Below, piece by piece: positions 26,738 through 64,000 of a stretch of DNA of 64,000 bases. The stretch is from Butyricimonas faecalis. Lineage in GTDB: Bacteria; Bacteroidota; Bacteroidia; Bacteroidales; Marinifilaceae. Each line of letters opens with the position of its first letter. Position 1 is the stretch's first letter. The notes below the pieces were generated by a model. That model was not told the origin of the DNA and did no database searches. It saw only the letters and a program-made list of their open reading frames with translations. The stretch lies in the NCBI RefSeq assembly GCF_003991565.1, contig NZ_CP032819.1, positions 2,666,001 to 2,730,000 on the forward strand, read 5' to 3'. Position numbers and translations under genes: made by a program.

Positions 26738-26843
26738 CCCCCTCTAACTCCCCCTTTTCAAGGGGGAGAAACAGACGCAAGAACCCACCATAACACCTCA
26801 ATGCAGCGCATCCTCCCCCTGTGTAAGGGGGAGCCAGAGGGGG
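26738..26843. repeat. Dispersed palindromic repeat, copy A (intact)
   Basis: A 106-bp element bounded by CCCCCTCT and AGAGGGGG. Inside are two small hairpins (CTCCCCC-TTTTCAA-GGGGGAG-like and CTCCCCC-TGTGTAA-GGGGGAG-like) separated by a less GC-rich centre containing ACGCAAGAA and ATGCAGCGC. The element can therefore fold as a closed three-branch structure. It lies within the arg operon. Related copies are at 32945, 41913, 49952 and 63443. Confidence 0.8.
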
Positions 26844-41912: not shown

Positions 41913-42019
41913 ACCCCCTCTGGCTCCCCCATACACAGGGGGAGAAACAAGCGCAAGAAACTGCTACAATGTTACATGCAGCGTGTTCTTCCCCTTGAAA
42001 AGGGGGCGTCAGAGGGGGT
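41913..42019. repeat. Dispersed palindromic repeat, copy B (intact)
   Basis: A 107-bp element between ACCCCCTCT and AGAGGGGGT with two inner hairpins and the central motifs GCGCAAGAAAC and ATGCAGCGTGTTC shared with copies A and D. It lies in the gap between rnd-1 and tolC-1, preceded on the left by TTTAGAA-type repeats. Confidence 0.8.
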
Positions 42020-49951: not shown

Positions 49952-50035
49952 TCCCCTCCAACTCCCCCTTACACAGGGGGAGGGTTGATTACCAAGCGGT
50001 TTCCCCTCCTGGGTAAGGAGGGGCTAGGGGTGGTA
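49952..50035. repeat. Dispersed palindromic repeat, copy C (diverged)
   Basis: TCCCCTCCAACTCCCCC, ACACAGGGGGAG, then CCCCTCCTGGGTAAGGAGGGG and CTAGGGGTGG keep the two-hairpin layout with diverged arms. It lies between the SusD-associated lipoprotein and the ABC-type permease gene. Confidence 0.6.
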
Positions 50036-63442: not shown

Positions 63443-63506
63443 ACCCCCTCTAGCTCCCCCTTTTCAAGTACGATGTTTCAATGTCGCGTGTTCTCCCCCT
63501 GTGTAA
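63443..63506. repeat. Dispersed palindromic repeat, copy D (shortened and interrupted)
   Basis: It starts like copy B (ACCCCCTCTAGCTCCCCC), lacks about 25 bp of the first hairpin arm and centre, continues with TTTCAATGTCGCGTGTTC and CTCCCCCTGTGTAA, and then stops where copy A reads on into GGGGGAG. The sequence from about 63507 is unrelated and leads into the IS110 element. It is preceded by TTTATGA-type repeats. Confidence 0.65.
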
Positions 63507-63567
63507 CCTTAGCTTTGTATCATGAAAAGTAAATGGAATAAAAAAGTAATATTTATATTTGTAAAGT

Positions 63568-63720
63568 ATGAACTAATTTGAAAGAAAGGAAACCGAGGTG
63601 TGAACCGTGAGCTGTGTTTGAAAACAGCTTCATCCCCCTATTTGGACACCTTGGCTTTCTTGAACGGGGACCTGTATAAGAAATTAACTTTCTTGTTGTT
63701 AAGGTTTTTAGGTGACGTTC
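63568..63720 (+). ncRNA. Candidate IS110 bridge RNA
   Basis: Downstream of TATATTTG (63554-63561) two tandem stem-loops can be drawn. The first: AAGAAAG (63582-63588) with CTTTCTT (63655-63661) plus CCGAGGTGT (63593-63601) with ACACCTTGG (63646-63654), enclosing an internal loop and an apical hairpin AGCTGT/ACAGCT (63610-63629). The second: GAACG (63662-63666) with CGTTC (63716-63720), ACCT (63670-63673) with AGGT (63710-63713), and apical hairpin AAGAAA/TTTCTT (63678-63694) beside a 15-nt internal loop. This order upstream of the recombinase matches the target-binding and donor-binding loops of bridge RNAs known from IS621. Ends are approximate. Confidence 0.65.
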
Positions 63721-63758
63721 AATATCCTTTCCCTCTTCAAATTGCTAAACACAAAGAT

Positions 63759-64000
63759 ATGGAAAACTTTTATTTTATCGGGGTAGACGTTAGTAAAAAG
63801 AAACTTGATTTTTGCGTGTTGCTAAACGGCACGATAGTTCTTGAAGAAGTAGTAAACAATAACATCCCGTCGATACGTCGTTTCCTGGAAACGTTCTTGG
63901 TTGATTTTAAAACCTCGATCGATAACCTGCTAGTCTGTGCCGAGCACACGGGGCAGTACACCTTCCCCCTGTCAATCGCTTGCCAGTCTCTCTCTTGTGG
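63759..64000 (+). CDS. IS110-family transposase (DEDD recombinase), N-terminal part
   Basis: The reading frame is open to the end of the window (80 codons). It begins MENFYFIGVDVSKKKLDFCV, with the first acidic catalytic residue at Asp10, and reaches VCAEHTGQY with Glu62; these correspond to the RuvC-like DEDD domain of IS110 transposases (usual motif MEATGxY). The C-terminal Transposase_20 domain is beyond the window. It follows a non-coding stretch of about 250 bp. Confidence 0.88.
   Translation, partial: MENFYFIGVDVSKKKLDFCVLLNGTIVLEEVVNNNIPSIRRFLETFLVDFKTSIDNLLVCAEHTGQYTFPLSIACQSLSC

Follow-up and report, generated by a model that had tools for sequence, protein, structure and literature searches.

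Bridge RNAs, or seekRNAs, are a kind of RNA known since 2024 (PMC11208160, PMC11208158, PMC11187229). In elements of the IS1111 and IS110 groups, a noncoding region beside the gene for a DEDD transposase yields a short RNA that matches both strands of the target; the region lies upstream of the gene in the IS110 type, while IS1111 elements usually carry it downstream and have sub-terminal inverted repeats (PMC11187229). In IS621 of E. coli, a long left end encodes a bridge RNA in which a target loop precedes a donor loop, with left and right target guides (LTG, RTG) and left and right donor guides (LDG, RDG). The target is a REP-type palindrome, the joined ends rebuild a sigma70-like promoter, and the recombinase combines a DEDD motif with a Ser (PMC11208160, PMC11208158). 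Both the target and the donor core of IS621 are CT, and the accounts of this element describe cores that were kept at CT or altered together in both DNAs (PMC11208160), with GT, AT and TT also working (PMC11208158). A further rule, the handshake, concerns position 7 (PMC11208158).

The element described here lies at the end of a 64,000-nucleotide stretch of the Butyricimonas faecalis genome, here called the window. It is like IS621 in its long left end, the order and guide logic of the two loops, the palindromic target, the promoter motif over the joined ends and the DEDD and Ser residues of its recombinase. It differs in that the first core base can be any base in the target and is T in the donor, the right target guide is 6 nt long, the fold is without a separate 5′ stem-loop, and the promoter motif is of the Bacteroidota type. 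ISCro4 belongs to the same recombinase family, a likeness known from a protein sequence match alone. A search of titles and the opening parts of abstracts of open-access journal papers found no bridge RNA of this kind in Bacteroidota, and the main text of PMC11208160 has no word beginning with Bacteroid. The left end in the window almost certainly encodes a bridge RNA, and the insertion sequence to which it belongs, of the IS110 group, targets a repeated extragenic palindrome. This reading is built on sequence: the ends, targets and empty sites, covariation of the two-loop fold, covariation of guides with target and donor, and a promoter motif at the junction. The RNA belongs to a known kind; what is informative is a mechanistic variant at the core and the product junction.

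The Element, Its Copies and Its Recombinase

The full element and its right end, which the earlier note had suggested obtaining, were recovered: the element measures 1276 bp (genome C1:2729507-2730782), and the window holds its left part only (63507-64000, + strand). The left end had been placed at 63505, two bases too far out, as the element starts at 63507 and the AA at 63505-63506 comes from the target. A search of the host's own genome found eight copies, 100% identical over the part in the window; the matches to the other seven start 0 to 2 bases ahead of that arm of the target which lies on the left. With the eight copies aligned together with their flanks, the left junction reads CTCCCCCTGTGTAA followed by CCTTAGC, and the right junction ATAAGAATA followed by GGGGGAGTT(A/G)GAGGGGGTAG, with GTCGG in copy L024 and GGGAGAG in copy L028 as exceptions. 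The right end of the element, ...ATAAGAATA, thus stands directly before GGGGGAG. The few single-base differences among the eight copies fall within the coding part, and the recombinase frame (332 aa) is open in seven of them, that of L025 being broken by a one-base deletion. The left end is the longer one, with 252 nt before the ATG as opposed to 25 nt after the stop; at just 25 nt, the right end does not hold a bridge RNA as in the IS1111 group.

Over the full recombinase protein, PF01548 and PF02371 score above the cut-off. The only solved structures matched by its sequence are IS621, a distant match of 72 bits, and ISCro4 (PDB 9t56, E 4e-18). Residues D10, E62, D102, D105 and S251 are invariant in a 21-sequence protein alignment (A1) and, by eye and with a chain offset of 2, align with the IS621 catalytic residues named in PMC11208158. 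The protein has the DEDD RuvC-like recombinase, Tnp_20 domain and catalytic Ser that define the IS110 group. As judged from its sequence, the element at 63507-64000 is a member of this group with a predicted bridge RNA in its left end (Table 1).

Table 1. Features of the left end and its flank (positions in the window).
Feature	Position	Strand	Remarks
Target: left arm CTCCCCCTGTGT (63493-63504), core AA (63505-63506)	63493..63506	+	Identical in 8/8 copies; forms the palindrome's left half
TAnnTTTG box (TAGCTTTG) at the extreme left end	63510..63517	+	20 nt from the right-end TTTG in the would-be circle
Internal (second) TAnnTTTG box (TATATTTG), shortly before the RNA	63554..63561	+	Without an obvious -33 box
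Predicted bridge RNA body	63584..63731	+	Closing helix GAAAGG (63584-63589) / CCUUUC (63726-63731)
Target-binding loop	63593..63654	+	Basal stem CCGAGGUGU (63593-63601) / ACACCUUGG (63646-63654)
Left target guide (LTG), CUGUGU	63612..63617	+	Equals left target CTGTGT; 6/7 positions adjoining the core match
Apical stem UGAA/UUCA of the target loop	63619..63632	+	Position kept by compensating changes; forms with both guides open
Right target guide (RTG), UCCCCC (63633-63638), core complement UA (63639-63640), handshake UU (63641-63642)	63633..63642	+	Complement AATAGGGGGA equals the right junction, 10/10
Donor-binding loop	63660..63722	+	UUGAACG (63660-63666) / CGUUCAA (63716-63722); ACCU (63670-63673) / AGGU (63710-63713)
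Left donor guide (LDG), AUAAGAA	63676..63682	+	Equals right-end ATAAGAA, 7/7
Right donor guide (RDG), UAAGG (63700-63704) and core complement UU (63705-63706)	63700..63706	+	Pairs with AA-CCTTA at the left junction
Gene of the DEDD recombinase (332 aa), truncated at the end of the window	63759..64000	+	PF01548 and PF02371; IS621 structure 8wt6, E 4e-19

Relatives were drawn from a protein search with 914 hits at E 1e-60 or better, 120 of the 914 being listed; of 196 loci on genome contigs, 80 were retained, and 23 left ends were aligned. Where the near relatives were found points to a host in the Bacteroidales. Relatives occur in 4/393 genomes of the order sample at 1e-90, the host's own included, in 7/101 and 10/123 genomes of two families, and in 0/358 genomes of the family of G096. 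No relatives were found in phages; viral contigs gave two distant loci and one fragment, and eight plasmid records, each below 60% identity, were left out of the analysis. Some relatives carry duplications at their own ends. In L047, the first 42 bp of the left end occur twice in tandem, with an NA core again preceding the second copy, and the L072/L157 left end has the same arrangement with its first 24 bp (L072). Both look as if the element's own left end had served as target.

The Target Palindrome

All eight copies interrupt the palindrome CTCCCCCT-GTGTAA-GGGGGAG, and once the element is removed, CTCCCCCTGTGTAA joins GGGGGAG to give it intact. Its arms, with any spacer of 2-12 nt, were found at 69 genomic positions, against none for a reversed control. 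Empty sites also exist in sister genomes. In G007, the orthologous place shows an intact palindrome at the join within a single alignment of 1022 bp at 86%, and in G009 the palindrome has one base changed (1023 bp at 85%). Three others (L167, L170, L171) align on both sides without alignment across the intergenic stretch between and are therefore uninformative on this point.

Exact intact palindromes number 37 with GTGTAA and 15 with GTGCAA (counted by hand over 52 rows). A preference for the GTGTAA form was considered and dropped, as 8/8 insertions against 37/52 intact sites of that form is too weak a contrast. The palindrome is seen in the window at 26748-26833, 41924-41942 and 49962-49982. 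It is frequently present as two units, separated by 62-65 nt and differing in their loops, and one 33-kb stretch (G000:C1:1567401-1600065) is densely populated with it. Such pairs resemble the BIMEs of E. coli.

Fold of the Bridge RNA

The two adjacent stem-loops that the earlier note described hold up. The region 63560-63740 folds at -48.9 kcal/mol (z -2.74), with 1/200 shuffles equally good, and the stems are kept by compensating changes in the 23 relatives. In these, the basal stem of the target loop pairs 8.09 of 9 positions on average with its own strand, as opposed to 5.95 with strands swapped and a maximum of 6.83 in 5000 shuffles. For the basal stem of the donor loop, the mean is 6.87/7 against a shuffled 6.10, and 0/500 shuffles reached the observed mean. 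With the 23 left ends aligned, 16 of 19 consensus pairs have at least one sequence in which both sides are changed and the pair is kept. The pairs in the basal stem of the target loop were counted by script, since the MAFFT alignment (A2) misplaces gaps there, which is also why RNAalifold missed this stem. The covariation across IS110 relatives that had been proposed as a check thus supports both predicted stem-loops.

Both stem-loops proposed earlier are real, but the minimum-energy apical hairpin of the first is probably not its working form. That hairpin, AGCUGU/ACAGCU, buries the left target guide; relatives keep another apical stem, UGAA/UUCA here, which leaves this guide free. Columns 60-62/73-75 of this second stem have both sides changed and the pair kept in 9, 11 and 10 of the 23 sequences. 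The UGAA/UUCA stem forms when both target guides are held open, in a fold 8.0 kcal/mol worse than the minimum. The minimum-energy hairpin, not kept in relatives, was set aside as working structure. An RNA end at 63720, as proposed before, falls slightly short, because the RNA extends at least to the closing helix (63726-63731). The fold of 63560-63740 contains no separate 5′ stem-loop of the IS621 kind, a point against a bridge RNA, as is the hiding of the left target guide in the minimum-energy fold. Rfam at gathering scores gives no match in the bridge RNA region.

Guides and Their Partners

Comparison of the loops with the true ends and the empty target gave 6/6 for RTG, 6/7 for LTG and 7/7 for LDG. 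A donor guide had already been recognized in GTTAAGGTT at 63698-63706; its complement fits the left end 7/7 (AACCTTA, 63505-63511) and then meets a mismatch, or 8/9 overall. For the first loop, CATCCCCCTATT at 63631-63642 had been picked out as sharing CCCCCT with the palindrome. The sharing is confirmed, but the contact was placed loosely and the left target guide was missed: the last ten letters of CATCCCCCTATT, complemented, are AATAGGGGGA, the exact right junction outside the window, to which the right guide UCCCCCUAUU fits 10/10. GUGUGAA at ~63598 was also considered as left target guide and rejected: GUGAACC hardly varies among relatives, and the part that does vary and matches the target comes after it. 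Two details of the window element speak against a bridge RNA: the two LTG bases facing the core (UU) do not match AA, and the handshake U for target position 7 faces T, with which it does not pair. Across elements, the handshake base fits this position in 14/21, G-U included.

Across relatives, the guides change with their partners. For the 21 of 23 elements with a left flank, LTG fits at a mean of 5.76/7, the best of three registers being taken for data and shuffles alike, as compared to a shuffled 2.85 with a maximum of 3.95. In the 17 of 23 elements with a right junction near the gene, RTG fits at 4.94/6 in Watson-Crick pairs (shuffled 2.41, maximum 3.71), and in the same 17, which have five different right ends, LDG fits at 6.94/7 (shuffled 5.84, maximum 6.59). 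The observed fit was reached in 0/5000 draws each time, in shuffles that ignore kinship, with close relatives among the rows (L062 and L063; L073 and L082; L064, L065 and L089). Poor fits, also evidence against a bridge RNA, were kept in the counts, namely LTG at 2/7 in L063 and 4/7 in L065 and L160, and RTG at 3/6 in L089. RDG yields no covariation because UAAGG is invariant in the 23 relatives. That the first loop would pair with the target and the second with the donor is supported by these comparisons.

A sister element in G007, whose protein is 62-63% identical, is present in three copies (L047, L051, L053) in the same palindrome. Its junctions, CTCCCCCTGTG-TA before CCTTAGA and ATAAGAA-TA before AGGGGGAG, lie one base further left, and its guides are CCCCUGUG and UCCCCU-UA, as opposed to CUGUGU and UCCCCC-UA in the window element. 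Read from these sequences, both target guides and the insertion point are shifted together by one base. The two sisters in their one palindrome, with guide and insertion each moved by one base, thus provide a clean natural experiment on how bridge RNAs target DNA at a great distance from IS621.

Other explanations for the leader have to be weighed against these data. Chance matches could result from the low complexity of the ends, palindrome and leader, given that the right guide has a run of C, the donor words are AT-rich, and single words do occur in dinucleotide shuffles of 63567-63740 (CTGTGT in 1405/20000, TAAGGTT in 503/20000). Two or more of the four guide words are found in 58 of these shuffles, but all four in 0/20000, and shuffled partners across relatives never reach the observed fit in 5000 draws each; coincidence is barely credible. 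The structured leader could instead be a regulatory 5′ region of the transposase mRNA that controls translation or attenuation, with the site chosen by protein-DNA recognition. The position of the RNA directly before the start codon would allow a joint transcript with the transposase, and leader and small-RNA regulation has been published for ISPpu9 (PMC8450116). Against a purely regulatory role, it is the loop letters, and not the stems alone, that covary with the target (LTG in 21 elements, RTG in 17) and with the right end (17), and the one-base guide shift accompanies the one-base insertion shift. A leader of this sort is therefore disfavored and very improbable, leaving a bridge RNA as by far the better reading.

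Joined Ends and Proposed Mechanism

TTTG and TAnnTTTG spaced by about 20 nt form the promoter consensus of Bacteroidota. Across the joined ends, NTTG-N20-TAnnTTTG is present in 17/17 elements for which both ends were found, so in each of these joining would rebuild a promoter motif of this type; 14/17 also have the internal TAnnTTTG.

Transcription, binding, the circle and the chemistry are inferred from IS621. The element would excise as a circle in which the right end joins the left, and the right-end TTTG and left-end TAGCTTTG, 20 nt apart, would then form a promoter that transcribes the left end. The RNA would bind the DEDD recombinase. Its first loop would pair with the palindrome, CUGUGU with the bottom strand of the left arm and UCCCCC with GGGGGA of the right arm, and its second loop (AUAAGAA, UAAGG) with the circle junction. 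Strand exchange beside the core would leave the target's first core base at the left junction and the donor's at the right.

Core Bases and the Product Junction

With core positions assigned by homology with IS621, the target core is AA (left) and the donor core TA (right) in 8/8 copies, the second base alone being common to both. A plain AA core shared by both DNAs was rejected because the right junction is TA in all eight. The identical donor and target dinucleotide of IS621 (CT) is thus not found here, and the core is treated as variable rather than defining, given that IS621 also worked with GT, AT and TT, albeit with both DNAs altered at once. In G007, whose genome contains GTGCAA palindromes, copies L047 and L053 read TA at either junction, and L051 has CA on the left and TA on the right. 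This indicates that the target supplies the left base and that the right one is carried by the element.

A right junction is available for 17 elements; 16 of these have TA as donor core and one has CG, and in 17/17 it is fitted by the core complement of RTG. This complement is identical to the target core in 7/21, and that of RDG in 14/21. L144, outside that set, is an exception, with a right guide of UU (by eye) against donor TA. In an alignment of 34 distant RNAs, 31 have GA (by eye) at the RTG core place, in agreement with TC as their donor core. The count was then widened by L144 and 31 distant elements. Here, 29/53 RDG bases pair with the target base by Watson-Crick rules and 43/53 with G-U, and 12/53 with the donor base. 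The bases of the distant rows were read by hand, with the donor base taken as T (seen in 24/31, the other seven being without such a right end); it was likewise taken as T for near-branch elements without a right junction. Within-branch shuffling gave means of 16.9 (Watson-Crick) and 30.0 (with G-U), and 0/20000 reached the observed RDG-target values. Excluded from the 41 distant rows were L090, L094, L095, L096, L124, L126, L130, L133, L138, L049, near-identical copies and L137. Of these, L090 is readable (target base C, RDG base U, a mismatch), and its inclusion gives 43/54.

Tree-corrected tests of RDG against the target, each with few independent pairs, gave means of 2.7 same, 0.0 opposite and 1.3 without difference (18 rows with both traits), 2.0, 0.7 and 5.3 (53 rows), and 2.1, 0.0 and 2.9 (34 rows with A or T). 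Because these pairs are too few, the RDG-target relation is taken from counts uncorrected for kinship, and on such counts the right-hand guide of each loop appears mostly to fit the partner DNA, i.e., the product junction. It is conceivable, if somewhat less than probable, that the core of this Bacteroidota branch is effectively one shared base, with 3′ guides complementary to the product junction rather than the substrate (RTG to the donor core base, RDG to that of the target). Full pairing would in that case require strand exchange first, which would favor insertion, and any first core base would be usable. IS621 cannot show such a rule, since both its cores are CT. The suggested design rule would be to write 3′ guides against product junctions. 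If the proposal is true, donor and target cores need not match fully, which would give bridge recombinases more usable sites and a possible bias to insertion.

L048, a relative in the host's family, has target core TG and donor core CG, with CG as core bases of both RTG and RDG, suggesting that a different second core base is possible as long as the guides follow suit. Another relative, of about 4.9 kb (L165:489-5364, G568:C5), has two target-loop-like hairpins in its left end before one donor loop, a layout shared by L073-L085. The plain fold of its sister copy L082 speaks against this reading, being no better than shuffled (z -0.41). By eye, GUUAC-UA is the right guide in both hairpins and their left guide resembles AUGGAAA; the right target GTAAC fits both hairpins. 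The stretch from its recombinase to its right end contains genes for a TonB receptor and for a cation-efflux protein weakly matching HMA, besides a small ORF, which makes L165 a candidate for a bridge RNA with a duplicated target loop in an element that also carries cargo genes.
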